Shown: positions 4,240 through 58,700 of the stretch, in pieces
Layout of the letters: every line of letters starts with the position of its first letter
Numbering within the stretch: the stretch's first letter is position 1
From: Holtermannia corniformis
Lineage: Eukaryota > Basidiomycota > Tremellomycetes > Holtermanniales
Assembly: GCA_001599935.1 (NCBI GenBank)
Contig: BCIJ01000021.1
Span: 9,484-73,483, forward strand
Direction: 5' to 3'
Length of the DNA stretch: 64,000 nt
Translations under genes and position numbers: made by a program
The notes under the pieces: generated by a model
What the model saw: the letters and a program-made list of their open reading frames with translations, nothing else
What the model was told of the DNA's origin: nothing
The model's database searches: none

Positions 4240-5366
<1,127 letters not shown>

Positions 5367-5518
5367 TGTGATGCGGTGAACGCCGCGACGGAGCTGCAGT
5401 TATGTACAGAGCTGCAGCCCCGAGCTCCGGCGCTCCGTGCCGCATCAGTGAGATCCGAGACTGGCAGGATATGACGCGGCGGAGCACAGTATGCATATTG
5501 GGGTTCGGCGTCTCGGCG

Positions 5519-14646: not shown

Positions 14647-16001
14647 ATGGCAGCACACTCTCTGGCCAAGCTCACAGCAGTCGCGGTCGTTGTGGCCGCA
14701 CTTGTCGCAGCCAAACCCACTGTACGTATCGCCAAATCACGTCCGTGCTGACCGCTCAGCACGATGATCACGACGCCAACGCCATGAAGCGCGTGTTCAA
14801 GACGCTGTTCCCGTTCGAAGACAAGCCAGCGTGGAATTCAAGTAGGTCTCCTGTCACTGGAGCGCACTGACACCAGTCCTCGCAACGTTCTACATCTCCT
14901 CGTGAGTCTGTGCTGAGCGTATTCTGCTAACCCCAGTGTACCCAATCTGATCCTGTGGTTCATCCCACCCACCCTCGAACCGTCGTCGCTCAACACGATG
15001 ATCGCGTTTGCAACCGGCGGCCTCCTCGGCGACGTCTTTCTCCACCTCGTCCCGCACTCGTTCTTTGGCGAGACGCACGAAGAGGGAGCCGTCAAGACGA
15101 TTGTTGTTGACGAGAAGAGGAACATTGTCATTGGGTGGGTGAACCGAGCAGGACGTCGCTCACGCCAGGCTATCCATCTTTCTCGGCTTCGCCGCCTTCT
15201 TTGTGCTCGACAAGACGATGCGCGTGCTCAACTCGGGTGCCGGCCACTCGCACTCGCACTCGCACTCGCACTCCGAGTCGCACTCCGAGTCGACGGCCAC
15301 GACCACCGCCATCGCCCCGTCCTCGTCCGGCCAGCTCAAGCAGCGCAAAACCCCTACCGCTGTCACCGAGCCAAAGAAAGAGCCCAACCAATCCCTCCGT
15401 CTCTCGGCCTACCTCAACCTGTTTGGCGACTTTACACACAACATTACCGACGGCCTCAGCATGGCGGCCAGCTTCTACGTCAGCCCCCAGCTCGGCGCTG
15501 TCAGTGCGATTGCCACCTTTGCGCACGAGATCCCGCACGAGGTGGGTGAGCTGTCGCCGACCGCGCTGACAGCAGATTGCCGACTACTCGATCCTGATCA
15601 AGTCGGGCTTTACAAAGTCGCAGGCAATGGCATCGCAGTTTCTGACGGCCGTTGGCGCTTTCGTCGGCACGTTTCTCGGCATCTGGATCGCCGAGACGTC
15701 GTCGGCCGCTGCCAAGATTGCTCTCGACACGCAAGTCGGACTGTTTGGCACCAGCGTCATGCCCGGCGAGCTTGTCATTCCAATGACCGCAGGAGGTAAG
15801 TTGACAATGCGCAACCACGCTGACGCTAGGCTTCCTCTACATCGCTTCCGTCTCGGTCATTCCCGAGCTCCTCGAAGAGTCCAAGAGCGGCAAACAGGCG
15901 ATCAAAGAGGTGAGCTCCTACCGAAGCGACAGCGCTGACGACAGTACGCTGCCATGGCATTTGGTGTCGCGTGCATGGCTGCAATCGCATGGAACGAGTG
16001 A
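14647..16001 (+). CDS. ZIP-family zinc transporter (Yke4/ZIP7-like)
   Basis: ZIP (SLC39) metal transporter of the KE4 subfamily, which in other eukaryotes moves zinc out of the ER/Golgi. ATG at 14647, stop TGA at 15999-16001; introns near 14720, 14844, 14905, 15134, 15540, 15796 and 15909. Signal-like N-terminus, then helices VPNLILWFIPP and GGLLGDVFLHLVPHSFFG. A cytosolic/lumenal His-Ser loop at 15241-15300 has a run of HS pairs. The metal-site helices are intact: HNITDGLSMAASFY and HEIPHEIADYSILIKSG. The last helix follows GGFLYIASVSVIPELLEE. About 370 aa. Start is supported by the signal sequence. Its stop codon lies four bases from that of the convergent gene. Confidence 0.9.
15240..15300 (+). 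repeat. His/Ser codon microsatellite inside the ZIP gene
   Basis: Tandem CACTCG/CACTCC hexamers encode the His-Ser run of the ZIP transporter loop. Such His-rich loops bind zinc in family members. Repeat length may vary between strains. Confidence 0.8.
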
Positions 16002-38397: not shown

Positions 38398-40298
38398 ATG
38401 GTGAATAGCACAGCAGGAGCATCGATGGAGCTGCACGCGCTTGGAGAAGTCGAGGCGCCGAGGTCATCCATCGGTCGCGAGTCGGGCGAACGGGGTGTGT
38501 AGAGCTCTGGCTTGGCATTCGCAATTGCTGATGCTGGGCGTGAAAGATCCTTTGCTGCTAAGGGACAAGGTCGTCACGAATGACCAGCTGGCGTCAATCC
38601 GGCAGTGAGTCGTCCTGGCGGAATGTGCAGTGACTGACCCCGCAGACGCAACAGCAGCCGCCGAGCAGCCAAGAAAGTCACCAATTTTTACGAGCAGCAG
38701 AACGAGGTGGGTCATAGCTATGCAGGCTCGTCGGCTTACATTGCCAGCACATCCAAGCACTGCTCAAACCGCTGCACGCTCACACGTCCGACGCTGCCGA
38801 CGATGCCGCCGCTTCAGCTCTCAAGGTCAAGATTGCAGTTTACGTCTCGTTCGGCGCCAACATTGTGCTTGGTCCGTCTTCGGCAGGCTTTGTTGCTTGC
38901 TAACGCTTGCAGCCATCCTCCAGCTTTACGCGGCTATCAGCTCTGGCTCGCTATCTCTGTTTGCGACCATGATTGACTCTGGTGCGTTGCGGACGGTTGC
39001 GCCGGCGCTCGCTGACATTGACAGTTTGTGCGTGGCCTGCTGGCGCCCCTGCCCCACTCATTCCCTTAGTCGATCCTTTCGCCAATCTGCTGCTGTTTGT
39101 CATGCACCGAGCTGCTGACAGGGCTGAGGAGCGCAAGTGGCGTGAGTGTCTCTGATTGCAGGTCAATCTCTGACGTCGGACAGCGGCGGGCGGTAGCCGA
39201 TTCGAGTCTATGTACGTTGTGCCTCAGGCAGCGGGTCTCTGCTGACTGATCAGCGGCAATGTCATCTATGCGTTCATCATGATCATGTGAGTCGCTCGTT
39301 GCAGTTCCCGACAACGCTCACTTTACTTAGGGTCAACATGATCCTCATCGTCAGTCGTGCTGCGGCGCCTTTACCCTCGCTCACCTCGCCAGGTCCAATC
39401 CATCCAAGAGTTTGTCACGCACGACGGCAAGGAAGTGTACAAGTTCCATCTACCATCGATCATTGCCGTTGGCATTGCTCTAGGTGAGTGCAGTCTTACA
39501 GGCGGGCGGTGCTCACCTTCGTCAGCCACCAAGTTCGGTCTCTTCTTGTACTGCTACGCGATCCGCAACGCGTCGAGTCAAGTCAACGTGCTCTGGGAAG
39601 ACCACCGGAATGACCTCTTGACGTGAGTCGCACACTGCAGCGTGTAACAGCATTGACGCTCGGCAGAAACGGGTGAGACGCTCCCATGTTGACCTCACTC
39701 TTCTCATGCAACACAGCTTTGGTCTACTGACCAGTGCTGGCGGCTCCAAGCTCAAGTGGTGGTACGTCGCCTGTCGGATAGACAAGGTGTCGCTCATGCA
39801 GCAGGCTTGACCCGGCTGGTGCCATGCTCATCGCAACCGTCATTTCGCTCATCTGGGTCCGGACCGCCTACGGTATGGCGACACCTTGATATGCGCGCGC
39901 TAACACCGCACAGAGCACTTTACCCACCTCGCCGGGATCGCCGCGCCGACCGAGTTCCAAAAGCTCGTCATCTACAAGGTGATTTCCCACAACCGCGCGT
40001 CCCCTTCACTTACGCCGCAGGCGATGACGTTCAACGACCGGATTGAAAAGATCGACTCGTGCAACGTGTACCACAGCGGCCCAAACTATGTCGTGGAGAT
40101 TGACATCGTCCTGCCGCCAGCGACCCTGCTTGTCGACGCCCACGACATCAGCCAGAACCTGCAGGATGCCATCGAGGCGCTGCCGGATGTATCGCGATGC
40201 TTCGTACACGTCGACCACGAGGTCGAACACAAGCCTGTGAGTTGCTTGCGGCGGAAGGATCGCGCTGACCTCTACAGGAACACCGCAAGAAAGTCTAG
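38398..40298 (+). CDS. Cation diffusion facilitator (DxxxD-type CDF transporter)
   Basis: ATG at 38398 (a second, in-frame ATG lies at 38425); first intron 52 nt restores ESGERDPLLLRDKVVTNDQL. Then SSRRAAKKVTNFYEQQNEHIQALLKPL, a pre-membrane helix typical of fungal CDF proteins, and six membrane segments: KIAVYVSFGANIVLAILQLYAAISSGSLSLFATMIDS, DPLANLLLFVMHRAADRA, GNVIYAFIMIMVNMILIVQSIQEF, SIIAVGIALATKFGLFLYCYAIR. Metal-site helix five reads WEDHRNDLLTNGFGLLTS, a D-x-x-x-D pattern associated with Mn/Fe rather than Zn subgroups. Cytosolic C-terminal domain: KIDSCNVYHSGPNYVVEIDIVLPP and RCFVHVDHEVEHKPEHRKK. Stop TAG at 40296-40298. About ten introns. Likely vacuolar or Golgi manganese or iron transporter (inference). 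Confidence 0.88.
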
Positions 40299-40398
40299 TG
40301 CGACTGATCAGGGCACAAGGTGTATAGTCCCATGCAGCTCATTGAATCCAGTGGAGGCAAGTGCCAAGCTTCGGACTCCGGGAGTATTCGGTTCTCAA

Positions 40399-40428
40399 AC
40401 CTCCACCTCCACCTCCACCTCCACTGGT
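40399..40428. repeat. CTCCAC hexamer microsatellite in the aldo/keto reductase promoter
   Basis: About four tandem CTCCAC units, 45-75 bp upstream of the aldo/keto reductase start codon. Position suggests it is in the promoter or 5' UTR. Confidence 0.8.
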
Positions 40429-40472
40429 CCAGTTATATATCCACGGCTGCAGCTGTTCGTCTTCATCTCGCC

Positions 40473-41625
40473 ATGTCCCCAGAGAACAAGATGCAATACG
40501 TTCGGTGGGTGCTCGACGCCTTGCGCACTGCTGACGATGCAGCCTCGGCGACTCGGCGCTCAAAGTCTCGCGCGTCATCCTCGGCTGCTTGTCTTTCGGC
40601 AACAAGTGGCAGCCGTGGCTGCTTCCAAAGGAAAGGGCGCTGCCAATCCTCAAATACGCCTACGACCAAGGCATCAACACCTTCGACATGGCCGATGTCT
40701 ACTCGAACGGCGAGGCGGAGCGCATCGTCGGCGCGTTCCTGAAGGAATACAAGATTCCGCGGAACCGCGTCGTGCTTTTGACGAAATGTCACCAGTTCGT
40801 GCCTGAGGAGGATGCGCCGGTGGAGCCCAAGTATCTTGCGTACAACGATGGTATTCAGGTGAGTGCATAACATTGATGCATCCAGTGCTGACCGACAGGT
40901 CAATCGCTGCGGCCTGTCACGAAAGCACATCTTTGACGCCATCGACGCCTCCATCGAACGCCTCGGGACGTACCCCGATGTGCTGCAGATCCACCGACTG
41001 GATCGGGAAGCGTCGCCAAAAGAGATCATGCGAGCGCTCAACGATTTTGTCGAATCGGGTCGTGCGCGCTACATTGGAGCCAGCTCGGTACGTCTAGATT
41101 GCCGTCTTGCTTTACTGACTCGTCCAGATGAAAGCGTGGGAATTTCAAAACCTGCAAAATGTTGCAGCCGCCAATGGCTGGCATCAGTTCATCAGCATGC
41201 AGGGGCTCTACAACCTCGTGTACCGCGAGGAAGAGCACGAGATGCTACCGTACTGCGCCTTCTCGGGCGTCGGCTACATCCCCTGGTCACCGCTCGCGTC
41301 CGGCACCCTCACCCGCCCATGGGACGATCACTCGGACGTACGCGAACAGCAAGACGCGTTCCTCAAGACGTTCTTCCGAAGCGGCGAGGATGAGAGTAAT
41401 CGCCGGATCGTTGCCGGCGTCGCGCAGGTGGCGGAAAAGCGCGGCAAGAGCATGGCGCAGATTGCGCTTGCGTGGGTGTTTGCAAAAGGAGCGATGCCGG
41501 TGACGGGGCTGGAGACGGAGCAGAGGATCAACGAGGCAGTCGAGGCTGTGGCGATCGTGTTGACCGACGAGGAGCTGGTGGCGCTGCAGGAGGCGTACAC
41601 CCCGCGAAAGCCGATGCAATTCTGA
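40473..41625 (+). CDS. Aldo/keto reductase
   Basis: NADPH-dependent oxidoreductase of the AKR (PF00248) fold, close to fungal/yeast enzymes of the YakC/Shaker-beta-like type. ATG at 40473, introns near 40506-40540, 40861-40900 and 41089-41128, stop TGA at 41623-41625; about 350 aa, normal. Catalytic tetrad positions are visible: D and Y in TFDMADVYSNGEAE, K in VVLLTKCHQ, H in VLQIHRLDR. Also SGRARYIGASS, WHQFISMQGLYNLVYREEE, YIPWSPLASGTLTRPW and the C-terminal cofactor loop PVTGLETEQRINEAVEA. Cytosolic. Substrate unknown. Confidence 0.93.
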
Positions 41626-41786: not shown

Positions 41787-42117
41787 TCAGAACTGGTAGA
41801 GGTTTCTACCGCTACCGCCTGGCAAGTCTTCATGTAGTCAGCTGCCGAACCAGGGTGGCACTGGGTCTACTCACGGACGGGACACAGAGAGCGGATACGT
41901 GTGACCCACACATCGCACTTCTCACCTCCCGGGCCGCGATAGGTGCAGCGAGAGATCTTGCGTCCGGTGTAAAGGTACTCGTCTGTGGCAGCATCAGATC
42001 CATGCTATCATGGGCTCCCAGGAACGTACGAAGGGGGCACACGGTGGCCCCACTGGGCATCCATTTGCCACACAACTTGTCCCGCTCTTCATCGTAGTAT
42101 GGGCAACGACCGGTCAT
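41787..42117 (-). CDS. Tiny two-module Cys/His protein, copy 1 (unrecognised family)
   Basis: Not recognised. Modelled from ATG 42115-42117 to stop TGA 41787-41789, with two introns: one with donor GTACGT after codon CTT-C near 42029 and one with donor GTGAGT near 41876. Product about 80 aa. It consists of two modules, RCPYYDEERDKLCGKW...VCPLH and RCTYRGPGGEKCDVW...LCPVH, each C-x9/10-C-x10-C-x2-H, followed by the tail LPGGSGRNLYQF. Both His codons are split by a phase-1 intron (C|AC). The spacing predicts two zinc sites (inference). No signal peptide or membrane segment. It faces kinase copy A across about 660 bp. Upstream coding sequence could extend the N-terminus. Confidence 0.65.
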
Positions 42118-42779
42118 GTGGAGGGCCACTTCGAATGTGTTCAATCGAGATTGTCGGCTGGACGCAGTGTCAAACAGCAGGACAGGCGCTTTATGTGAAT
42201 ATCGGTACGGGATGAGATGGTATCGGCACCCTTCTCTTGGACAAAACCGCATGCGATGTGCGCTACGCCTTCAATCCAGCCTCACAGAAGAGTGCCACTG
42301 TGAGGTTTTGCAGGTTTATGGCTAGAACCATTGAAGCCGGGTCTAGAAGTTGAACAAGCGCAACTCGATCAAGGCCATTTTTGGCTTACTGCATCTTCGC
42401 CGCGTGGGCCTCGGGTCCAGAATACAGAGCATCCTCAGCGCAAAGGGAGGTGACATTGCCAAGAGGGACGGTCAAAGCTGCAATCGGCAATGTCGAACAC
42501 CACGCTGAGACAAAGCATGATGTGCGGAGCATCCCCATTCACTCTTCAGCACAAGGCATCTCGAACCGCAGCTGATTTGCCGCTAGGCGATCTCGGTGAG
42601 ACTTCCGCACGGACTGTGTGTTGCGGCCAAAGGACACGCTAAGACGTTCAACAGGCACTGGCCGCACCGGCGATCACAGCCTGAAACGGTGCAGCAAATT
42701 TGCGTTGCTTCGCGGCGGTACAATGTGCACAATAACAACCACCGACCTCACTCTTGACTATAGTGGTACACGAGCGACG
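42118..42779. promoter_or_regulatory. Intergenic region between the tiny Cys/His gene and kinase copy A
   Basis: Divergent spacer. It contains the shared kinase-upstream element at 42654-42689. Nothing else recognised. Confidence 0.5.
42654..42689 (+). promoter_or_regulatory. Shared upstream element, kinase copy A
   Basis: GGCACTGGCCGCACCGGCGA then TCA; matches the elements upstream of copies C, D and E (core CCGCAC..GGyGATCA). Weakest member: the AAAGG part is changed to CAGCC. Confidence 0.5.
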
Positions 42780-42848
42780 CCATGGTGAGCTGATCCGAGC
42801 CGTGCAGGCGTCATCCGACCTTGAACAGGATCCCCTTCCAGCGCGCGG

Positions 42849-44273
42849 ATGGTATAGCTTGGAGGTCCGTAGTAGCGTGGCTGGGCGAGAAGAGACTGAC
42901 GCTCCCTTACAGCTAGCTGAGCTGGTCAAGCTTGCCCAGAAGATCGACATCGTAAAATACGCAGATGAACTTCGACCGGATCACAAAGCTGAAGCCGACT
43001 ATCCGGCTGACATTCGCCAGCTCCCTCGCGGCGGCCGACATTTGCACATCCCTATAATGTTTGATGACGGCGTCCGGTGGCTCGCGCGTATACGAACAAT
43101 GGACAACCGTCACCCCGGGAAGATGGAAAGTCTCATGCAAGAGAGCGAGGTGGCTACAACACGTTACCTCGTCAAATCGGGTCTGGCGGTCCCGCAAGTC
43201 TACGTGCCCAAGCTACCTGTAGGTACGTGAAGTAGAGTGGACGCAGAGGCAAGCTGCTAACACTGGCGCGAGGTGTCGCTGAACAGATCCAGTTCATCTT
43301 CGTCGAGGCTCTCCCTGGCCAACCCTGCCCAGCACCCCTCAGCGCTTGGAACTCGCACCTTACGGCTGAGGACATCGAGAAGATCATCCCGCAGATTGCC
43401 GCCTTCTACGTTCAGCTATCGGGCCTCAAGTTACCTTTCAACATGGTCGGAAGCCTGGTGGAGACGGAGGGCCAGACGGCAATGGGGCCTTTGATCGATC
43501 CCATCTTCAGCAAGACGGCACCACCCCACTTCCACGGCCCTTTCCTGTCGAGCCTCGATCGTTACCTCACCGAGATTGACACCTCCCTCACGGCCATCCT
43601 GGACGGCGCAGACTATGGATACCCCCCGATAGCCTATTCCATTCGTCTCTGGCTCCGGGACCTGCTGCAGGAGTCGCCGCAACTATGGGAGCAAGACGGC
43701 TTTTTCCTCAAACACGGGGACGACAAGGGTGACCAATGGCTGATGGATGACAATATGGGCTTGACTGGCGTCATCGATTGGGAATGGTGAGTAGATCAAT
43801 GATTCATCTGGACTGACTTCAGTAGGGCTCAGGTCGTGTCCAAGGCCGAGGCGTTTGCCGCGCCGGCTGGCTTTACGAATACCGAGGCTTACTACAACGG
43901 CTCAATCGAGCTAAGCCGGGAAGAAGTTCTATTCTCTCAGGCCTTCGACAAACTCGAGCGACCAGATCTGGCGCAGTGCGTGCGACAGGGCCAGGTATGG
44001 ATGCGTCTCACCGACTGCATTCGGGGTCAGCCAAACTTCCTACAGCTTCGCGCACTTCGCGAACTTCTGACAGGGGACCGCGGCAAAGACAACGACATCA
44101 TGGATTTTTACAACACAGTCGGTGCTCGTTACAAGGACCATCCACATGTGCTTCGGCTAGAAGCTGAAGGCGAGAGCTGGTGGGCTGCACGAAATGCAGA
44201 GGCGGCAGCGGAGGAAGCAGCCATCCAGGCCGAGCTCAAGGCCGAGGAAGAGGCTCAGGCTCAAAGCGGATGA
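42849..44273 (+). CDS. APH-like kinase, copy A
   Basis: Member of a five-gene tandem family with an aminoglycoside/choline-kinase-like fold (PF01636-type). Coding exon 2 starts at 42913 with LAELVKLAQKIDIVKYADEL; the first exon is not resolved (candidate ATGs at 42780 or 42849). N-lobe: GGRHLHIPIMFDDGVRWLARIRTMDN, ESEVATTRYLVKSGLAVPQVYVP. C-lobe: FIFVEALPGQPC, IIPQIAAFYVQLS, NMVGSLVETEGQTAMGPLID, then the catalytic HGDDKGDQWLMDD (D kept, the usual Asn of HGDxxxxN replaced by Gln) and metal-binding GVIDWEW. After an intron at DWE-W: AQVVSKAEAFAAP and a charged helical tail. Substrate unknown; cytosolic. Stop TGA at 44271-44273. Confidence 0.7.
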
Positions 44274-44564
44274 GGGAGCATCAACGTTGACCGCATAGTA
44301 GGTAGATGACGTCAAGCTGTGCGCGCGCGCAGGTTCACCTTTGTTGATCACCCGCACGAGCGGGCAAGACAGAGAGGGGCTCACTCTGACCAGGTCTGTG
44401 CGACTACTGGCTCCATGCCGACTTGTGTGTCACGCACAGCAAATCGAGCACACATCCTTTGGCTCAGGTACCGCAATCGCAATGCGCAGGGGCGACGGCG
44501 ACTGCTCAGGGCGGTGCAAAGAAAGCAAACGCACCACTGGGCGACTTCTGCTCGTCCAACGAAA

Positions 44565-46070
44565 ATGGCATACATAGCGCCCAAGCCTGATTGCATAGTA
44601 AGTACTACTGTAACCCATCGCCTCTGTTGTTGACCCGCGATAGGAGCTGTTTCGCAGCGTCAGATCCGGTGCTCAAGCATCACTTTCGCGACCGCTAACA
44701 TTCTGGTAGTGGGCGGATTTCATTGAGATAGCCAAGACCATCGACTTGGCCAAGTACGCAAGCTCTCTTCGGCCTGGCCATACGGCCACTGCAACGTATC
44801 CTACGGAATATGGTGCACTTCTCAGAGGCGGCCGCCACCTACACATCCCGATTGACTTTGAGGACGGCGTACAATGGCTGGCACGGATCCGCACAATGGA
44901 CAACCGCGATCCGCCCGACATTGAGCGTTTGATGGCGGAAGGTGAAGTGACAACCACTCGGCTGCTTGTCAAAGCTGGCTTGGCTGTACCGCAAATGTTT
45001 GTGCCTGCTCTCTCAAAAGGTATACAGACTTGCTGCGCTCCGGGAGACATGGCTGACGCCATGACAGATGTTGCCGACACCATGCAGTTCACATTCGTCG
45101 AAAGGTTGCCCGGTCGACCTTGCTCGACCCCCATGGGCAGTACCAGGCGTCGACACACCGACGAGGAAGCGGCCATCATCATCCCTCAGATTGCTGCATT
45201 CTATGTGCAGCTGTCGCACATCGAATTCGACATGGTCGGTAGTCTCATCGAGACTGCGAGCGGTGGGACAGAAGTGGGACCCCTGCTCGATCCCACATTT
45301 AAACAGGCGACCGCGCCACATTTTCTGGGCCCTTTCACATCTGGCCTCGACAGATACCTCGCTGAGATCGACAGCGTGCTTGCAGCGATTCTAGAAGGGA
45401 AGGACCTCGGGTACCCACCACGGGCGTATGTTATCCGACTTTGGCTCCGAGATGCGCTATCCGAAGCGTCTCATTTGTGGGTGGACGATGGCTTCTTTCT
45501 CAAGCACGGCGACGACAAAGGAGACCAATGGCTCGTCGATGAGGACATGAACCTCACCGGCATCATCGACTGGGAGTGGTAAGAGGGTACTCTGCTACAT
45601 GAGCAGCAGCTGCTGACCATTGCAGGGCCCAAATCGTTCCCAAAGCCGAAGCTTTTGCCGCCCCGACTGGCTTCTTCAACGTTCCCGCCTACTACAAGGG
45701 GACGACCACGCTTAGTCGAGAAGAAGCGCTATTCGCGGATGCATTCGAAACACTCGGTCGACCAGATCTTGCGCGCTGCGTTCGTCAAGGGCAAGTGTGG
45801 TTTCGAATCCTTGAATGTATCAGGGAACGGCTGGACTTTGCCCAACTTCGAGCGCTTCGTGAGCTTCTGACGGGCGAGAAGGGCGAAGAGACGAACCTTG
45901 TTGAGCTCTGTGAGACGATCGGTGCGCGCTACCAGGACAACCCTGAGCTTTTACGACTCAAAGCTCAAGGACCCGCTTGGTTAGCTGCGCGGTATGAGAG
46001 AGCCAAAGCGCGTGAGCAGGATTGCATAGCTCGAGCTCAGGCCATGAAGGATGCGGCAGCGAAGGAGTAG
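44565..46070 (+). CDS. APH-like kinase, copy B
   Basis: ATG at 44565; exon 1 MAYIAPKPDCI ends at GTAAGT, about 110-nt intron, then WADFIEIAKTIDLAKYASSL. N-lobe RGGRHLHIPIDFEDGVQWLA-RIRTMDNRDPPDIERLM; C-lobe FTFVERLPGRPC, IIPQIAAFYVQLSHIEFDMV, KHGDDKGDQWLVDEDMNLTG, GIIDWEW. Splice at DWE-W gives AQIVPKAEAFAAPTGFFNVP, then the tail with TGEKGEETNLVELCETIGA. Stop TAG at 46068-46070. It follows copy A by only 290 bp and, unlike A, D and E, has no intact tiny Cys/His gene beside it. Confidence 0.75.
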
Positions 46071-46200
46071 CGAGTAATCTGTTATGCACTCTGGTGTGGC
46101 ACATGAGACTGTACAGGCATGAACGTCGCTGCCAGGTCTTTTTGGCCCGACTACGCACGGTCGATGCAGTGCGGCCTGCGGACAAGAAAGATGCTGATTA

Positions 46201-46237
46201 GGCACGCAGACCGCACAGGGCGATCAAAGGATGGGAC
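46201..46237 (+). promoter_or_regulatory. Shared upstream element, kinase copy C
   Basis: GGCACGCAGACCGCACAGGG then CGATCAAAGGATGGGAC, 119 bp before the ATG of copy C. Confidence 0.6.
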
Positions 46238-46319
46238 TAAAAAAACTGCGATGTCCTCGCCTACAACGACCACGACCAAGCCATAAAAAGCAGATTCAAC
46301 CGTGATAGATATACCGATT

Positions 46320-47822
46320 ATGGTATGTCTTCAAGATTCGTATGTACCCGAGCTGAAACTGCCAGAAGGCCCCCGAGCTGGGGTATTTTCGGCAAGAGGT
46401 ACATCTCAATCATGACTGCGTGTACTGATCAGTGGCTGAAGCCGCACAGCTCGCCGACCTCCTTCTTCTAGCTCAGAGGATCAACCTTGCCAAATACACC
46501 GAAGAGCTGCGGCCGGGTCATCACGCAAAGGCTCTGTATCCCCCCGACTATCGAACACTCGGACGAGGAGGCCGACACCTACATGTTCCGGTCGAGTTTG
46601 ATGATGGCCAAAGATGGCTAGCCCGCATCCGCACAATGGATAACCAAGATCCTCCCGAGATGGAGCAGTTGGTATCGGACGGCGAGGTGGCGACCACGCG
46701 ACTGCTCGTGGAAGCAGGCTTGGCCGTACCGCAAGTGTACGTCCCCAACTTGCCAAAAGGTCAGTGTCTAAANCAGAGACTGGTACAGTAACGTGCTGAC
46801 ATTGTCTTAGAGGTTCGCGAGGTGATCCTGTTCACGTTTGTCGAGGCGATCGCGGGCCAAGCCTGTGCGGCCCCCATCAGGTCCAAACCGACGCTGCACG
46901 CCGAGTCCGATGTCGACCAGATCATCCCTCAGATCGCCGCTTTTTACGTTCAGCTCTCGCATATCCGATTTGACAGAGTCGGCAGTCTTATCAAATCCGA
47001 CGGTCAGACTCGGGTCGGTCCGCTGATCGACTACACTTTTTGCAAAACCGAGCCGCCATTCTTTTACGGACCTTTTCAAACTGGGCTCGAGCGCTACATG
47101 ACCGAGATTGACAGGACTTTGGATATCATTGCCCATGGTAGCACTCACTACGGGTTTGCTCCCCGAGCGTACATCATCCGTCTATGGCTACGCGACCTGC
47201 TGCAAGACTCGCCACATCTGTGGGAAGACGGCAAGGATGAGGGCTTCTATCTCAAGCATGGCGACGACAAGGGGGATCAGTGGTTGGTGGACAAGGAACT
47301 GAGACTCACAGGTGTTATCGACTGGGAATGGTACGTTCCATACCGCGGCGCTTGCGTTATGGTTCGAGACTGATGGACTGCAGGGCGCAAGTCCTCCCGA
47401 AAGAAGAAGCCTTTGTGGCCCCTCGCGGCTTCACAAACATCCACGAGTACTTTGATCTCGGCTTGACAACGCTGAGCAGAGAAGAGGCGCTGTTTGCCGA
47501 GGCGTTTGACCGTCTGAATCGCCCCGACTTGGCGCGATGCGTTCGACGCGGCCAAGTCTGGGCCCGCATCAGCAACTGCATCAAGGGCAGGGCGAACTTT
47601 ATGCACATCCAGGCAGTCCGCGAGCTCGTCACCGGCGATCGAGGCCAAGAGAAGACTCTGAAAGAGTTCTGCGAGACCCTCTACGAGCGGTACAAGGACG
47701 ATCCGATACTGCAGCGGCTCAAGGTCGAAGGAGAGGCTTCGCGAGAGGACCAGCGGGCCAAAATCCGAGCGATCGATGAGCTGCTCGCGGCTGAGCAGCA
47801 AGCGGAGGGTAAAGCGCAGTGA
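46320..47822 (+). CDS. APH-like kinase, copy C
   Basis: ATG at 46320; exon 1 (46320-46398) codes MVCLQDSYVPELKLPEGPRA followed by GVFSAR; a 34-nt intron (46399-46432) joins it to VAEAAQLADLLLLAQRINLA. N-lobe RGGRHLHVPVEFDDGQRWLA; C-lobe FTFVEAIAGQAC, IIPQIAAFYVQLSHIRFDRV, LKHGDDKGDQWLVDKELRLT, GVIDWEW. After the DWE-W splice: AQVLPKEEAFVAPRGFTN and a tail ending EQQAEGKAQ. One N (46772) lies inside the second intron. Stop TGA at 47820-47822. Catalytic Asn replaced by Gln as in A and B. Confidence 0.78.
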
Positions 47823-47992
47823 AGGGGATTGAGCGCCCATGTGTGATACAGTAAATCTTCGTACACCCAGGGGTGATGAAGCAACGCCGTAATGATCGCA
47901 TCGCGCTTGCAGTGAGGCTCGTGGAGCAAAGTGCACAGGCCGGCCTCAGCACAGAAAATGAACGCCGGCGATCGGCAGAGACCGACGCGAGT

Positions 47993-48236
47993 ACACGGAC
48001 CTCGAAGGCTTTTTCAAGACAATCAGTGTTCGGTACAAGGACGACCCTGTACTACAGCGGCTGAAGGTGAAGGGCGAGGAATGGCTGCAAAGGCAGTTGG
48101 CAGAGTACACGGTGCTGGAGAAGAAGCTGTTGGCCGAGATGAGGGCTGAGGACGAAGCACGAGAGAGGCGGAAGAGGAAGACGCTCTCGTCGCGAAGCGC
48201 ATCCCGTCGGTGTGCTGTCGGTGAGTTGTGTGCTAT
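47993..48236 (+). pseudogene. APH-like kinase C-terminal fragment
   Basis: The frame reads LEGFFKTISVRYKDDPVLQR then LKVKGEEWLQRQ, aligning with the last 50 residues of copy C (LKEFCETLYERYKDDPILQRLKVEG). Kinase core is missing. It is a truncated sixth member, placed just where a kinase would precede the second tiny Cys/His gene. Confidence 0.65.
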
Positions 48237-48576
48237 AAGTGTGTGATACTATGTGGATTACTTGTGCAACATAGACAGGCCCCAGGCTTGACTTGACCTC
48301 GGACAGTGCGCGAGACGACCACATCCGCAGGCACCAGGTCGGTTTCTTGCCAGATTCATCGACAATCAATGACATCGTACGAGCAGGAACTCGCCATGAG
48401 TCGGTTTCCGACAAGCGATGCGAATCTTGCAATAACGATGAGATCCAGCAAGTAAATGATATACATTCCTTGACTCACACAAACAGATTCATCAAATCGT
48501 CAATCAAACACCAGGGGGTATTCAGTCTGAAGTCCAACATTGTCCGATCAAGAGCGCCTCTCTCTACTTGGCAAAG
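48237..48576. other. Gene-free interval
   Basis: About 340 bp after the kinase fragment. I see no gene or known element in it. Confidence 0.5.
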
Positions 48577-49034
48577 CTACTGCCAGCGGCTGTATCCCTG
48601 GTAGATCTGCGTCGCCTCTGGGTCAATCCTACCCGGGCCACCCGGCTGGTCTACGGTTGATGAGCTTTAGCAGAGCACTCGCATTCTTACGAAGAAGACG
48701 CACGCAGCGCACACTGAGTATAGTTGTGCGGAGCCCAATTGGTGCACGGAGCGTAACCCGGCACCGTGTAGTCGCAACGACGCAGGGTACTAAAGTCTGT
48801 TTGTGCTTCATCTGCCGAATGTCAGTTTAAGCACGCGTATCAGATCCACGTACGGGTTTGGCAGACGACTTGACCACTCACGATTCTCACTCCGCAAGCC
48901 TGTGTCTCGGACACCTGCACGGGACAATAGCGCGTATTGTCGCGCTTCCTACAACAGAGGCATTGGCTAACGTCGCAGGGTCAACATCGCAAGCGTGGAG
49001 CTCACATTTTCTTGAGGTATTGAATGAGACCCAT
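48577..49034 (-). CDS. Tiny two-module Cys/His protein, copy 2 (unrecognised family)
   Basis: Start ATG at 49032-49034; exon 1 MGLIQYLKKM ends with a phase-2 donor GTGAGC; exon 2 gives KRDNTRYCPVQVSETQACGV...VVCQT and a phase-1 donor GTACGT; exon 3 (HEAQTDFSTLRRCDYTVPGY...APCTNW...QCAL) ends at another phase-1 donor; exon 4 is HQPGGPGRIDPEATQIYQGY-SRWQ. Stop TAG at 48577-48579; about 100 aa. Module spacing: C-x9-C-x10-C-x2-H twice. Both final His codons (C|AT, C|AC) are split by introns. Similar to copy 3 over its whole length (module 2 and the PGG-GR-DPE-YxGYxRW tail). Faces kinase copy D. Probably zinc-binding (inference). Confidence 0.7.
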
Positions 49035-49557
49035 CGTGTCGTGTGTCTCGGCTAGCTGTCAGACAGGACGACTCCCAGCCGCGAGCCCGTCGTCTTGTAC
49101 TGTCCGGCGAAGAAGCACACAGGTACCTCGCCGTGCAGGCGTTGCATTGCAGACGCTAGCCGATCGAGGCTGGAGAGTTTGTCAAGCGGTCAGAAGACGC
49201 AGTTGCAGTCCACCACGCGAATATCAATGTCCAAAACGGTCATTTCAGCATCCACAATCCGCCAGTCCGACCCGAAGTGTGGGAAACAGCGATCTTACTG
49301 ATGCTGACTGAGCGGGCTGATGAATGCCCAGCGAGTCTGCATTGTTTCGAGGCGACAGAACAGGACATTTTCATGTCCGTATCTGCACTGCATGGACCGC
49401 ACGCTCGCGATCTGTGCACCTGCTACCGCCTGCCCTAGCGTACAGGCACCAACCGCACGGCGATCAAAGGACGGAACGGCGCGGTTTTCTACAACGTTCA
49501 TCGCAGTCCTCATCCTCGTCAGCTTCGTGTTCTTGCGGTCAACGCGTCGGCTCAAGC
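49035..49557. promoter_or_regulatory. Divergent spacer between tiny Cys/His copy 2 and kinase copy D
   Basis: 523 bp. Carries the shared upstream element at 49445-49479. A short - strand frame near 49060-49270 has no recognisable domain and is interrupted by a stop. Confidence 0.55.
49445..49479 (+). promoter_or_regulatory. Shared upstream element, kinase copy D
   Basis: GGCACCAACCGCACGGCGAT then CAAAGGACGGAACGG, 113 bp before the ATG of copy D. Confidence 0.6.
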
Positions 49558-51039
49558 ATGTCGGACACTCTAGGACAACCTCATGATCCGAGCGTGAGAA
49601 CTACGTTTCCATTCGCGCAGAGCTCAACTGATCACCGTTGGTCGGATAGGGGTACTATCATCAGGTAGATCGAAGTCTCGTCGTTGCTACCGTCACGTCC
49701 TCGAGCTAACAGCCTGCAGCTCGCAGAACTCGTCAACAAAGCCAAGGAGGTCGACCTCGCCCAGTATGGGAAATCATTACGTCCAGGCTATGACGCACGG
49801 GCGATATACCCTGTCGACTACCCTTCGCTGAAAGCAGGAGGCCGACACATCCATATTCCTATCGAGTTCGACGACGGAGTGAGATGGCTCGCCCGGATCC
49901 GCTCCGTTCGCAGTCGTGATCCGCCCGAGGTTGAGCGCATCTTGGAGCAAAGCGAGGTAGCGACCATGCAGTTCCTTGCAAAGACCGGTCTACCTGTCCC
50001 CAAGGTGTTTGTTCCAGTCTTACCGCCCGGTGGGTAGTATATCATCCAGCATATTGTCGTGGCTCACCGTCACCGCAGATGTCTACGAGGCAATTCAATT
50101 CACGTTCATCGAGGCAATGGCCGGCACAAGCTGCGATGCCCCACCCATGCACAAAGGGCTCACGATCCCGCGCCGTCATACGGACGAAGACATCGCCGTC
50201 ATCATCCCTCAGATCGCTGCATTCCTCGCACACTTATCGCACTTTCCTTTGGATCGCGTCGGCAGCCTTTTGCCGTCCGACACAGGCGAACTTCAAGTCG
50301 GCCCTATCATCAGCTTTCACTACTGCAACCCCGACACGCCACCGTACTTCAATGGACCTTTTGCGAGTAACCAAGAGCGCTATCTCCAGGAAATCGAGGC
50401 TGAGCTACAAGACCCTGAGGAGGAGGAGTCCACGGGGAACCCGGTGCACTACTACCTTGTTCATCTATGGCTGCGCGACACGCTCAAGGAGTGTACCGAC
50501 CTGTGGAAGGATGAGGGCTATTACGTCTGGCACGGTGATGCCAAAGGTGACCACTGGCTAGTGGATGAAAACCTCAAGCTGACGGCTGTGATTGACTGGG
50601 AGTGGTGAGTCAGTTCGCAAAGCTCATGCGCGCAGCTAATCCCCTCAGGGCCGAGGTCGTTGCCAAATCCGAGGCTTTCGCTGCACCCAATGCGCTGGTC
50701 AATGAACACGAATGCTGGGTCTTAGGCCTCAACACCCCCTGTCGAGAGGAAACCTTGCTCATCGACGCCTACGAGAAGCTTGGGCGTCCCGACTTGGCCG
50801 ACTGTGTGCGCAAAGGCAAAGTATGGGTCCGCTTGCGGGACGCGATTGGCGCAACCCCAAACTTGATCCAGCTTCAAGCCTTGCGGGAGCTGCTCACAGG
50901 TCACCGAGGCGACGAAAAGACCATCGACGAGTTTTGCGACAATATCGGCGCAAAGTACAAAGACGACCCAGTCGTGCACAGGCTGGCTCAATTTGGGCTG
51001 GCTGAGGAGCATGAGAAGGTATCTAGCGCCTCCCAGTGA
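49558..51039 (+). CDS. APH-like kinase, copy D
   Basis: ATG at 49558 codes MSDTLGQPHDPS; a long first intron (about 49594-49732, ending CTAACAGCCTGCAG) joins to LAELVNKAKEVDLAQYGKSL. N-lobe AGGRHIHIPIEFDDGVRWLA, SEVATMQFLAKTGLPVPKVF; C-lobe FTFIEAMAGTSCDAPP, IIPQIAAFLAHLSHFPLDRV, WHGDAKGDHWLVDENLKLTA, AVIDWEW. DWE-W splice to AEVVAKSEAFAAPNALVN. Stop TGA at 51037-51039. The catalytic-loop Asn is His here. D and E are closer to each other than to A-C (shared FCNPDTPP-type insert, HGD.KGDHW). Confidence 0.78.
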
Positions 51040-51374
51040 GGAACAGCGTGGTGGTTCGGGCAGCAAGCAGGACAAGTATGTGCTTCCAATTGTGATATAT
51101 CCGCATGCAGTGTGAATAGGATGTTTGCTGTCAGCGCTGTCGATTCTGATTCGCTCATCACAAGCGGAGTAGCGCGCATTGCTGATGGTAGCATCCAGAT
51201 GTTTAATGGTGGGCCGACTCGCCCTCATTCAAGTAGCGTCAAGCAGATTCATCATGTTCGTGAGCACAGCCTATCAATCAATCACTCATCCTGTGTGACA
51301 ACATCGCAGATTCTCGTAGCTCTTCAAGCGCAATGGGTCCCGTCTTGAACTTGACAAACGGAGACGCGCTGGGT
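51040..51374. other. Gene-free interval
   Basis: 335 bp between convergent copy D and tiny Cys/His copy 3. Nothing recognised. Confidence 0.5.
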
Positions 51375-51814
51375 TCACCAGCGGCCGTATCCAGTGTACG
51401 TCGTGGTTTCCTCGGGGTCGACACGTCCCTCACCACCCGGGCGGTCTGGGATCATCACTGTCAGCTGCCGCAAACAGGTGCTGATTCAAAGCGAGGGTGA
51501 AATGCTGACGCGATTCGCACTGGAGGTGGTTGTGCATGGCCCACAGGTTGCAAGGCGCCTCGCCTGGTGGCGTATAGTCACAGCGGCGCAGCGTACCGTT
51601 CTCGCACTGATCGCGGTCTTGTACGGTAAGCCGAGCTGTACAAGCGCCCCGTGTGATACGTACGAGCGCTGCAAACGACCAGACCACTCACGGCTCTGAT
51701 GCCGCATTCACCATCGCCGGAGAGCTTAACGATGCAGTATTCTGGTTCTGTACGCGCTCTATCATGACTCAGTATGTTGCATCTCAGTCGAACATCCTTC
51801 ACTTACTGTGACAT
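51375..51814 (-). CDS. Tiny two-module Cys/His protein, copy 3 (unrecognised family)
   Basis: Start ATG at 51812-51814; exon 1 MS plus two bases, donor GTAAGT; exon 2 QARTEPEYCIVKLSGDGECG...VVCSA; exon 3 HRDQCENGTLRRCDYTPPGE-APCNLW...QCES; exon 4 HRPGGEGRVDPEETTTYTGY-GRW; stop TGA at 51375-51377. About 93 aa. Both modules are C-x9-C-x10-C-x2-H, and both final His codons are split as C|AC by phase-1 introns. No signal peptide; no hydrophobic segment. Faces kinase copy E across 641 bp. The repeated fold suggests two zinc knuckles, perhaps for protein or nucleic-acid binding (inference). Confidence 0.72.
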
Positions 51815-52455
51815 GTTTATCGAAATTAGATGGGATGGGTGCTGAGGAATCTCCTCGAGCGGGTCACTTATAGGCGTACGCGCGGGCGATCTTCATGTCT
51901 GACGATAGCCTTGCATTCATCTGCGCAACAAGACCGACCGAGCCGGCCTACTGATATTGTTCTTGCAGAATAGGGCTAGAACAGAAATGAGAGAAGCGCA
52001 ACAATCGTCGTACTGGGCAGTGTGGGGTGGCCATTCCTCATCGGTCAAGGTATCTGGCTATTCTCAGCGTCAGACCCATACGACTAATCCGCAAACGGCT
52101 TGCGGTAGCTGAATCTCTCCTCGGTCAGCAGAGGTCCTGTACGTGTAGTGTCCCCGCTGTGTCCCCGGAGGTGACCTTTGCAGTTAGCAGCATCGTTCAT
52201 CAGATCCTGAAAGGATCATCTGTGCTGAGTTCTGTCAGCGCGTCGATCCCAGGGTGTAGCTCAGGTCCGCGTGTGTGCCGTGTGCTGACAGCTAGCGCAC
52301 ATCATAGGCACGTCAACCGCACGGTGATCAAAAGGATGGTACGGCGAAACGTCTCGCACGGGCGGTGGAATAGGGGCTAGGATCAAGCGTTCAAGACCGC
52401 AGCATGGCCGCCTTGCTGAACTCACAAGCTACCTTTGCCTTCCCAAGCTATAACG
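51815..52455. promoter_or_regulatory. Divergent spacer between tiny Cys/His copy 3 and kinase copy E
   Basis: 641 bp, with the shared element at 52307-52344. No other gene recognised. Confidence 0.55.
52307..52344 (+). promoter_or_regulatory. Shared upstream element, kinase copy E
   Basis: GGCACGTCAACCGCACGGTG then ATCAAAAGGATGGTACGG, 149 bp before the ATG of copy E. Confidence 0.6.
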
Positions 52456-53903
52456 ATGGATGTCGGTCTTGGCCTGCGCGGCGGTGCTGCAGTGAGTAAA
52501 GTCACGATGCTGAGCCCCACCACTGACGCTCGATAGGCGTATAAGCGTGAGGTAAGACCAACTACTCTTTGCCGCCATTTGTGATCCTCCTAGACTTCCC
52601 GCTGATCTCCTGCAGCTAGCCGACCTTGTCAAGAAGGCCGAAGAGGTCGACGTGGCTCAATACGCCCGACGATTGCGCCCAGGCCATGAGGCCAAAGCGG
52701 TCTTTCCCACCGATTGCTCCTCGCTGCAGACCGGAGGACGTCACACGCACCTCCCAATCGATTTCGACGATGGCGTACAATGGCTCGTGCGTATACGGCT
52801 GCTTCTAGGACGCGACACACCCGAAATGGAGCGGCTCATGGATGAAAGCGAAGCGGCAACGACGCGGTTCTTGGCGGATGCGGGTCTGCCAGTGCCAAGG
52901 GTCTACATCCCGGACCTGGCACCAGGTCAGCCATCACTCGACTACTGGTTGAGAGTTCTCACCACGCCGCAGAGGTCCGCGAGGAGCTCCAATTCACATT
53001 TGTCGAACGCGCAGCCGGCAGCAAGTGCGATGCTCCGTTGTATAACCCATACGGCACCTTTCCCAGTCGCCATTCGCCATCGGACATTGCCGTTATCATC
53101 CCTCAGATTGCATCCTTCCTCGAGCGCTTGTCGCATCACCGACTGGACCAAGTTGGGAGCCTTTTGCCGACCTCGTCGGGCGCGCCACGCGTCGGCCCTG
53201 TGATCAGCTACTACTTTTGCGATCCGGACACCCCGCCGCATTTCTTCGGGCCGTTCCAGACGAGTCGAGACCGATATCTGTTCAAGATTGACAGGGTTCT
53301 CAAAGAGTGCGAAGCGGGACAAACGACTGGCGACCGCGTGCAGTTCTACATCGTGCATTGCTGGTTGCGCGACACTTTGAAGGCAGCTACCCACCTGTGG
53401 AAGGACGAGGGCTACTTTGTGAAGCACGGGGATGACAAGGGTGATCACTGGCTGGTTGACGACGAATTGCAAGTCACGGCATGGATCGACTGGGAATGGT
53501 GAGTCCGTGTCAAACGACGCTGCTGACAAGTGACAGGGCCGAGGTCGTCTCGAAAGCCGAGGCGTTTGCGACCCCAAACGCGCTCGTCAACTATCCAGAG
53601 TGTTTCAACCTTGGGCTCAACACTCTATGTCGCGAAGAAGCCCTGCTCGCCGCTGCGTTTGACGATCTGCAACGTCCAGACTTGGCCGCCTGCGTCCGCA
53701 ACGGCAAGGTCTGGGAGCGAATACGGCACGCTATCGGCCGGGTCCCGAAGTTGTTGCATCTACAGGCGCTGCGCGAGTTACTGGTCGGTCATCGCGGTGA
53801 AGAGAAGACGATCGACGAGTTTTGCCAAAGCGTTGGTGCGAAGTATATGGACGACCCGGTGGTGCGACGGCTGGCGGACGAGGCTGCGATCAAATCAAAG
53901 TAG
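52456..53903 (+). CDS. APH-like kinase, copy E
   Basis: ATG at 52456: MDVGLGLRGGAA, intron (GTGAGT...CTGACGCTCGATAG), mini-exon AYKRE (15 nt), intron (GTAAGA...CTGATCTCCTGCAG), then LADLVKKAEEVDVAQYARRL; all junctions are phase 0. N-lobe TGGRHTHLPIDFDDGVQWLV, SEAATTRFLADAGLPVPRVY; C-lobe FTFVERAAGSKCDAPL, IIPQIASFLERLSHHRLDQV, KHGDDKGDHWLVDDELQVTA, AWIDWEW. DWE-W splice to AEVVSKAEAFATPNALVN. Stop TAG at 53901-53903. Catalytic Asn replaced by His. Paired with tiny Cys/His copy 3. Confidence 0.78.
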
Positions 53904-55781: not shown

Positions 55782-58700
55782 ATGACAGACTCGCTCGGTT
55801 CTCCGCTCGACATCGACTCCAAGCACCCGCCGTGAGTGTAGTGCATGCTACTGTGAGCTTGCTAACAATACAGACGACGCCCCCCACCCCTGCAGTCTTT
55901 CCAGCGACCGCCGCAGGGCACATGGGAGCCATTACCCCATATCCTGTTTGGCTTTGCGACGGCCGCCTTTGAGCCTTCCTACCTCTCAGCCTCGTCTGGC
56001 GCCGACAGCCTCGCGCGCAGAAACAGCAAAGGCCATAAACGCACCGGGTCGTCAAGCTCACAAGTCCGCAACCGCTTCTCTTGGAGTGGCATCCCAGCCA
56101 GCGAAAAGGGCAAGCATGTCGAGCGTGAAGAGCGCGGCAACCCGCACGAGCAGGCGCTCGCAGTCGGAGACGAGATCTATGCGTTTGAGCAGCTTGTTCT
56201 GGATAGACCCGAGCCGGGAGGTGTGATCTGGTATCGCGGGTGAGTGGCTGCGGTCGAGATGGCCTCGGCTGATGGTCTAGCTACGTGTCGACCCCACCTC
56301 CTATCGTCCAACTCGTCCCTCGCGTATCCGACCCTTCCTCATCGACTTCAGCTTTGACAGTCCCGCAGCCCGACCCAGCAGTGTTCGTCGGCATCTTTCC
56401 CTCGACACACTTTTATATCCGAGAGCAGCTACAGGATGCAGAGGGCACGCTGGCGGACGCCTACGCCGAGGCAGAAGCCAAGCGCCGCGCAGGCTTTGCA
56501 AAGATGGAACCGCTGCGTGAAGAGGAGGAAGAAGGTGCAGCCGACGACGACTGGTTCGCGACAAGTCGGACGCGCACAGCGCGCCATGAAGAGGACAAGG
56601 CGCAACCGCCGCTGCCGAACCTCAAAGCGGGCGGAGAGACGCGAGAGGGCAGGCGGCAACCACTCGTAGACGAGATAGCGTGTGCGATACGAGAGTGGTA
56701 CCTGGTCAGTAGCATGCCGTTCTCACTGCCACACTGACGCTCGTCAGCGGATGCCCATTTACCTCCAACGACGCGAATACCGCGTGTTCGACATTGTCCA
56801 TCAACACATTGACGCCCTTCACATGGGTCGCCGTCAGCTCCTCGCGCAGACTCTGAGTGTGGAAGAGACTGCGCTGCTCAAGAAGGAATGTGTCGCCCGC
56901 CTTGTCAAAGGCAACGTTGCGCAGGGCCTCGACGTGATTGTCCGCCACCCTGCCCATGGCGGACTCGTCACGGTCGATCCAGAGGCGGAAGACGAGCAGG
57001 AAGGGTGGCTGACTGGCGTGCGCATGTACGCTATGCAGGTTGCGGTAGGTGCTGTATTCACGTTGCGCTGAACTGACAACTCAGCTCGCCTACATTGACG
57101 TCACGCCGATTGACGCACTCCTCAACCGTACAGCCGGACCGCCAGTCAAGACATCCCAGCCTCTATCTGCCTCGCTCACTGCCGGCTCGACTCGCAGCCG
57201 CCGCACTCTGACCGCACCAGACGCTTCGGTCACGTCGGGTGCCTTCTTCCAATGCTTCCTCGACGTACGCGCCTTTGTCGCAAGCCCCTGCGCACCGGGC
57301 GAGACTGCCGAGCTCTACTTTTCACTCTACAGCAAAGCCGAGTCGCGTTTCCTGACCGAGGAATACTGCCTCGTCATGAACCACCTCGGCTCCCCTGCGC
57401 GCGACGCCGAGACTCGTATCGGTCGATTGCGCACCCTCTTCACCGACCTCTCGGCGCAGGACGTCAGTGGGACCGTGTACCTTGTCTGCAGGCTGGTCCG
57501 CCATGGCGCGATGAAGATGGCGGCCGAGGCCAGCTCGGCCGGCGCACCCGAGTCGAGCAACAAACGCAACAGCCTGCGATCAACCGCAACGTTAACCGAC
57601 CGCAGTTGGCGCGGAACCGCCACCGGCTCGGTCCGGACAACAGATCGCACAGACGATTCGTTCTCCATCACTTCTGGCTATGACGGCCCGCGGATCCAGC
57701 AAGCACCGACGCATGCGACAGTCAATGGGGACACAAAGTCGGGCCGCTTCACCTTTCGCAGGCCGCTTGGCTGCTCTGTTCTCGAACTCAATCAACTCGC
57801 GCGCATGGTCACCAACCCGGCTGATGCGCCTTCTGGCGGCGAATTCTCAATTCCAATCTTTGTCCCGCGCGATGAGGCCGGCTTTGCGACCCTGCACGAA
57901 GACATTATCAACGGCAGGAGCAAGGAGTATGAGAGATCGCCAAGGTCAGTCCAATCGTCGGCGTAGCATCGTATGCTGACAAGCGCAGGGCCGATGCCAT
58001 CGCCATCAGCTTTCGCATCTTCCACGGCGTGGCAACCGCCATCATCAACGAAAACCCAGCGTTACTGCTCGATGTGCCGCTCACGGCTCGCCTCGGCTTC
58101 CCAGACGTCGTCTACCCCGGCAGTGTTCGCAACGACTTGTACGTCAAGCTGTGGTCTGGTTTGTTCCACCCGGCTGTCAGCACCGGCGGCTCGCTCCGCA
58201 TGCGCAAGTCGGTCGCGCCGGCCGGTCACTACAACGTCCAAGTCTCTCTCGAAGTACGCCGAAGCGATGGCTCGGCAGTACACGACGCGCTCTTTGCCGG
58301 TGGCTCTGGCGAACCCCCAACGACATACTACCAGTCGCTAGTGTTCCATCACAACGAACGCCCGACATTCGGCGAGCTCGTCAAAGTCTCTATCCCCGGC
58401 GACGTCATGCCAGACTGTCACTTGTTCTTAACGTTCCGCAACCGTAGTTCGCACCCGAAAGGATCGGCAGCGCCAGTCGACACCAACGGCCTCGAAAGGC
58501 CATTCGCGTTCGCCTACCTCCCGCTGTGTTCGGCCGAGCAAGCGTGCCTCCAGGACGGCTCGCACGACCTCGTCCTCTACCGCATGGAGAAGAACCTACA
58601 AATCTCGCCAATGATCTACTTCAACGCCCCGTCGATAGCAACCGACGCAGCCATGGCGACGCTCAAGCTGCCGACCAACGTGGCCAAGGCAATGTCGCCA

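Follow-up and report, generated by a model that had tools for sequence, protein, structure and literature searches.

What do three very small genes, set beside and between a row of kinase genes in the genome of the fungus Holtermannia corniformis, encode, and do they belong functionally with their neighbors? The locus lies in a 64,000-nucleotide (nt) window of contig BCIJ01000021.1 (GCA_001599935.1; contig positions 9,484–73,483, forward strand), whose own coordinates are used throughout (position 1, first letter of the stretch); searches of the organism's own genome cover 20.2 Mb in 55 contigs. As judged from their predicted exons, the three loci (copies 1, 2, and 3, at 41787–42117, 48577–49034, and 51375–51814, all on the minus strand) are paralogous, intron-split small genes. 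The reading that we favor, with a probability of about 0.5, is that they are genuine spliced genes for mini-proteins with tandem CCCH modules, each forming a divergent unit with an APH-like kinase gene and serving as a regulator or adaptor of the kinase pathway.

With the introns removed, all six modules, two in each of the three proteins, fit the pattern C-x9/10-C-x2-(W/R)-x7-C-x2-H, the first gap being x9 in five modules and x10 in module 1 of copy 1. The positions, strand, and spacing reported for these genes in the first-pass annotation are borne out, as is the existence of a tail. It had ascribed a PGG-GR-DPE-YxGYxRW tail to copies 2 and 3; only the DPE and GYxRW parts are particular to these two, HxPGGxGR and a later Tyr being common to all three. 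Its estimate of about 80–100 residues becomes 78, 101, and 93 amino acids for copies 1, 2, and 3, respectively, and its three introns per gene hold for copies 2 and 3, copy 1 needing only two. The raw six-frame reading of the window already displays the first three ligands of every module. The codon for the last ligand, His, is in each of the six split by an intron (C + AC five times, C + AT once), and reading through the donor site turns it into Arg in all six.

The eight predicted introns (Table 1) are all of the GT..AG type and 42–64 nt long, and the three spliced models are free of frame breaks. The gene models are judged good, because the intron phases agree among the three genes, the exon for module 2 measures 108 nt in all of them and that for module 1 95 nt in both copies 2 and 3, and the His codon is split in six of six modules; the splicing itself is predicted from the sequence. 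The donor after module 1 is GTACGT in all three genes. The weak points of the models are two AAG acceptors (intron 2 in copy 1 and likewise in copy 3), the GTCAGC donor of copy 3 intron 3, the mutually dissimilar first exons in copies 2 and 3, and the branch-like site CTRAY, present in only four of the eight introns. In copy 1, the His of module 2 requires the AAG acceptor ending at 41828; an in-frame CAG acceptor 9 nt downstream would yield Arg.

We then compared the window with 60 order-2 Markov windows, using the raw pattern C-x9/10-C-x2-[WR]-x7-C-x2-R, in which R is the unspliced reading of the His codon. The pattern occurs six times in the window, whereas the Markov windows average 0.05 occurrences and never exceed 1; when the W/R position is dropped, the window has seven and the Markov windows average 0.92 (maximum, 5). 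As the pattern was framed with the modules already known, these figures flatter it. A looser six-frame pattern (x8–11 in the first gap) gives 11 rows, five of which are unrelated matches elsewhere in the window. Across the six modules no column is invariant apart from those of the four ligands, and across the three proteins 23 columns are invariant, 15 of them non-ligand. This spacing and conservation lend good support to the finger part, and the ligand spacing suggests that the modules bind zinc.

The same features bear on two other accounts of the Cys/His content. Fungi commonly secrete small proteins rich in Cys, and the six conserved Cys of each protein, an even number (copy 3 has a seventh), could form three disulfides with the His being incidental. 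This account is quite improbable in our view, since each repeated module has three Cys, an odd number, the His recurs in six of six modules despite its assembly across an intron, and the predicted N-termini do not look like signal peptides by eye; from these N-termini, an intracellular location seems likely. A small buffer of zinc or another metal, that is, a metallothionein-like storage protein or chaperone, would accord with the high Cys/His content and with the matches to a CDF-type ZT_dimer domain and, below threshold, to a ZIP-type transporter in the window. Metallothionein ligands, however, typically stand in CxC clusters, whereas those of the modules are regularly and widely spaced; conserved positions hold Trp, Tyr, Pro, and Gly, as in folded domains, and the distance to the transporters is about 1 kb in one case and 26 kb in the other, with other genes intervening. 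All of this makes such a role very unlikely.

Among the three proteins, copies 2 and 3 are closest (identity, 55%; other pairs, 38 and 32%). Between them, the module-2 part of copy 2 matches the module-2 exon of copy 3 at 2.7e-9 within one exon in a six-frame genome search; differences at codon positions 1/2/3 number 32/29/55 (p = 0.005; three shared exons, ungapped), and the NG86 method gives nonsynonymous (dN) and synonymous (dS) divergences of 0.45 and 1.89. Their DNA identity amounts to 0.58–0.65 in exons 2–4 (shuffled, 0.49–0.52) and 0.54–0.55 in the introns (shuffled, 0.47–0.50). The kinship of copy 1 is drawn from the protein alignment, BLASTP of the spliced readings (2e-12 to copy 2 as a single comparison), and the common exon layout. 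In DNA comparisons with copy 1, exons lie 0.01–0.06 above shuffles and introns from 0.01 below to 0.13 above, and the third-position excess in the exon pairs is slight (18/20/24 and 16/22/22). These values, together with the lack of detected relatives and the fact that copy 1 has neither the first intron nor the C-terminal motif, could be read as signs of decaying orphan genes, formerly coding and now functionless, or of chance open frames: copy 1 exon DNA is barely above shuffles and its introns do no worse than its exons. Against this, the three spliced models are unbroken in frame, copies 2 and 3 differ in excess at third codon positions, and six modules stand where 0.05 are expected; decay or chance is the least probable of the explanations considered here.

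The second part of the question turns on the neighborhood, the pairing of the small genes with kinase genes being absent from the first-pass annotation. Five tandem APH-like kinase genes, A–E (42736–53900, plus strand), stand beside and between the small genes, and four further paralogues elsewhere in the genome bring the matches to nine in all. Each small gene is arranged head-to-head with a kinase gene, copies 1, 2, and 3 with A, D, and E, respectively (three of the five tandem kinases). Against PF01636 (cut-off, 23.2 bits), single unspliced open frames scored 33.1 (D), 21.4 (A), 21.7 (B), and 16.5 bits (C), with no match for the one E frame scanned; A–E match each other by protein search. 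In the kinase tree, D and E are sisters (100/99) and the fork of A, B, and C stays unresolved, these three being mutually nearest by identity (58–63%). The closest pairs agree in both families, kinases D and E with small copies 2 and 3. Such a pattern would be expected if small gene and kinase gene were duplicated together, B and C having been formed without a small gene or having ended up without one. Seven database relatives of kinase D (30–39% identity) come from the basidiomycetes Rhodocollybia (one) and Kwoniella (six), and two of the seven, the Kwoniella proteins P0002 and P0004, have Cys/His-rich N-termini, which hints weakly at an association of fingers with this kinase family. There the Cys/His cluster is joined to a kinase related to neighbors A–E; the cluster resembles AN1 (PF01428; E 3.5 in P0004, far below the cut-off) rather than CX9CX10CX2H. 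The proposed link with the kinases is drawn from the arrangement, the closest-pair agreement, and these N-termini.

The kinases themselves deviate from the canonical APH catalytic loop, HGDxxxxN. The Asn position is occupied by Gln (six), His (two), or Glu (one) in the nine paralogues, and Asn is likewise absent from all seven database relatives; judging from these replacements, the family is possibly altered or inactive. By eye, an open frame at 47962–48243 (plus strand) resembles the C-terminal end of kinase C and looks like the remnant of another duplicate.

As to known zinc fingers, the first-pass annotation was mistaken in finding no named family with this spacing: CX9CX10CX2H is published for the WRC zinc finger of plants in PMC7380329, which ties the motif to barley HRT and describes GRFs as also containing a QLQ domain. 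According to PMC6585611, ET factors, with HRT counted as ET2-type, occur only in plants; they contain a GIY-YIG nuclease domain together with a variable number of zinc- and DNA-binding repeats. Five of the six fungal modules match the WRC (PF08879) spacing; unlike WRC, in which Trp-Arg precedes the second Cys, the six modules have KL, QA, GE, EK, AP, and AP at these positions. Pfam was searched with the three proteins (copy 3 minus its first residues) and with five single modules, copy 3 module 1 being left out. The WRC profile (cut-off, 28.6 bits) gave no match up to E 10 to any of these, whereas a control, a fragment of a GRF factor with its WRC domain, scored 80.1 bits (9.2e-23); the profile also found nothing in the organism's own genome. 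With the same fragment, which had no PDB match, hhalign of the six modules placed the Cys in register at a probability of 9% (E 0.0035, single comparison). Like the tandem Cys/His repeats of HRT/ET, two C3H modules are found in each fungal protein; in contrast to ET proteins, no GIY-YIG match was found in Pfam, and 78–101 amino acids leave no room for this domain. Since the spacing is that of WRC/HRT and no Pfam profile scores above its cut-off, we speak of common spacing, not membership.

Three other families come near in layout or score. The zf-C3Hc3H domain (PF13891; cut-off, 27 bits), which comprises two tandem C3H modules and has members such as KANL2 and INO80D, gave no profile match in the three proteins, and its search of the own genome was empty, so that it has no in-genome positive control. 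The Mcm10/primase finger (PF09329), presumably of a similar C-C-C-H layout, appears weakly on copy 1 alone (E 0.037; 14.3 bits versus a cut-off of 28.8), and a literature search on the spacing of the Mcm10 finger found nothing. The best Pfam E-value, 0.0044 for one of the three proteins, belongs to the uncharacterized archaeal DUF2180 (PF09947), which gives E 0.0046 for copy 2 module 1 (17.5 bits versus 22.2).

The likeness to WRC/HRT raises the possibility that the proteins are DNA-binding repressors or activators acting on the promoter region shared with the divergent kinase gene. The identical ligand spacing (PMC7380329), the zinc- and DNA-binding plant ET repeats (PMC6585611), and the intergenic region common to each small gene and a kinase gene favor this view, as does a non-coding element of about 40 bp that recurs in the intergenic regions and precedes kinases A, C, D, and E. 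Alignment scores of the element are 49 for D–E (shuffle maximum, 28), 41 for C–D, and 40 for C–E, all above each of 100 shuffles, and 32 for A–D (reached by 1 of 100); the A–C alignment (29) also tops all 100 shuffles, and is longer, gapped, and covers part of the element. A pattern of the element has three matches genome-wide (A, D, and E) and none in the reversed control; a stricter one has a single match (D). On the other hand, the WRC profile and hhalign results speak against such factors, copy 3 is acidic (isoelectric point, 5.46) in contrast to the basic copies 1 and 2 (9.02 and 8.58), and the element also precedes kinase C, a gene without a small partner, is not found before kinase B, and in the A–E comparison (21; reached by 53 of 100) does not rise above shuffles. 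We therefore regard a WRC/HRT-like transcription factor as unlikely.

From the modules, exon architecture, paralogy, and divergent arrangement that the locus displays, we propose that the three spliced paralogous genes would encode intracellular mini-proteins of 78–101 amino acids, each consisting of a tandem pair of zinc-finger-like CCCH modules that share the WRC/HRT spacing, plus a short PGGxGR tail. The small gene and an APH-like kinase gene would have arisen as one divergent unit and been duplicated at least twice. Each module would bind one zinc through three Cys and one His, and the compact two-finger protein, through contact with a nucleic acid or with another protein, may regulate the kinase gene or the pathway served by the kinase, a role suggested by the arrangement. 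In a bolder version, which we consider unlikely, the two-gene unit would be lineage-specific, every final zinc ligand existing only after splicing, and would act as a regulator–kinase switch or a selfish element; as donor read-through gives Arg in six of six modules, intron retention would disarm the finger.

Several observations weigh against the proposed regulator or adaptor. At the DNA level, dS is near saturation; NG86 returns none for either pair that includes copy 1, and YN00 gives no estimate for any of the three pairs. In comparisons with copy 1, the margin over shuffles is as large in introns as in exons or larger: for copies 1 and 3, introns reach 0.62 (shuffled, 0.50) and 0.59 (shuffled, 0.46), and exons 0.52, 0.57, and 0.46 (shuffled, 0.49, 0.51, and 0.41). 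Genome searches with copies 2 and 3 leave copy 1 unmatched, and vice versa, even at E 10; orthologues were not found, so that selection is judged among three paralogues. With three copies, agreement of the closest pairs arises by chance one time in three. No such small gene was recognized beside kinases B and C or the four paralogues elsewhere, and the pairing may accordingly be passive co-duplication. As the ~40-bp element also precedes kinase C, it is most likely part of the kinase promoter and speaks for the kinases rather than for the pairing. AlphaFold, given the module as read without splicing, yielded an uninformative model (pLDDT, 54). Finally, no Pfam match exceeded any family cut-off, and the protein database gave no relative at E 10 or better among 29 and 368 scored candidates. 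In the flanks of the four outside kinases, two strict and several loose pattern matches were set aside, the other conserved residues being absent by eye.

The absence of relatives is weak evidence in itself, because the protein searches need exact shared five-residue words and called genes. PDB and NCBIfam likewise gave no match to the small proteins, and PHROG matched four families weakly (E 0.075 or worse). The small proteins are a genuine, well-observed orphan family: their spacing is already known, and they themselves are without relatives in the databases searched. Protein searches of the genome with each of the three found no further copy, and an equally distant one could be missed, as these searches fail to connect copy 1 to either of the other two. 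Two candidates for a fourth copy, C1:1709142 (E 0.17) and C5:883935 (E 0.085), were rejected, as the modules are absent by eye from their six-frame readings. Genes this small and split are probably easily overlooked by gene callers, and unannotated relatives may therefore exist in other fungi. If confirmed, the genes would represent a fungal mini zinc-finger family with the spacing published for plant WRC/HRT factors, their one-exon-per-module structure would show how such proteins are built, and the divergent kinase would offer a concrete partner hypothesis.

Table 1. Predicted structure of the three small genes, with the divergent kinase genes and the upstream element (window coordinates)
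Feature	Position	Strand	Remarks
Copy 1 exon 1	42030..42117	-	start and module 1 (C-x10-C-x10-C)
Copy 1 intron 1	41983..42029	-	47 nt, GTACGT..CAG, phase 1, His codon split C/AC
Copy 1 exon 2	41875..41982	-	module 2, 108 nt
Copy 1 intron 2	41828..41874	-	47 nt, GTGAGT..AAG, CTGAC branch-like site, phase 1, C/AC
Copy 1 exon 3	41787..41827	-	tail LPGGSGRNLYQF after split His, then stop
Copy 2 exon 1	49006..49034	-	29 nt; no support from similarity to copy 3
Copy 2 intron 1	48949..49005	-	57 nt, phase 2
Copy 2 exon 2	48854..48948	-	module 1, 95 nt
Copy 2 intron 2	48812..48853	-	42 nt, GTACGT..CAG, phase 1, C/AT
Copy 2 exon 3	48704..48811	-	module 2, 108 nt
Copy 2 intron 3	48651..48703	-	53 nt, GTGCGT..TAG, phase 1, C/AC
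Copy 2 exon 4	48577..48650	-	tail QPGGPGRIDPE..YQGYSRWQ, stop
Copy 3 exon 1	51807..51814	-	8 nt; least certain of all exons
Copy 3 intron 1	51759..51806	-	48 nt, GTAAGT..TAG, phase 2
Copy 3 exon 2	51664..51758	-	module 1, 95 nt
Copy 3 intron 2	51618..51663	-	46 nt, GTACGT..AAG, phase 1, C/AC
Copy 3 exon 3	51510..51617	-	module 2, 108 nt
Copy 3 intron 3	51446..51509	-	64 nt, GTCAGC..CAG (donor unusual), phase 1, C/AC
Copy 3 exon 4	51375..51445	-	tail RPGGEGRVDPE..YTGYGRW, stop
APH-like kinase gene A	42736..44270	+	divergent from copy 1; span of open frames only
APH-like kinase gene D	49669..51036	+	divergent from copy 2; span of open frames only
APH-like kinase gene E	52556..53900	+	divergent from copy 3; span of open frames only
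~40-bp element	42652..42691	+	kinase A side
~40-bp element	49443..49481	+	kinase D side
~40-bp element	52305..52346	+	kinase E side
~40-bp element	46199..46237	+	upstream of kinase C, no small gene adjoining

Elsewhere in the window, the CDF-type ZT_dimer domain lies at 39904–40803 (plus strand; 6.6e-08) and the ZIP zinc transporter match at 14917–15546 (plus strand; 4.7e-05, under the cut-off). Two thiamine-related matches are found within 9 kb, Thi4 at 4868–5518 (minus strand; 2.5e-05, under the cut-off) and hydroxyethylthiazole kinase at 12987–13826 (minus strand; 8.5e-08). A DOCK-family guanine nucleotide exchange factor, with DOCK5 as its best PDB match, is located at 57933–60829 (plus strand).

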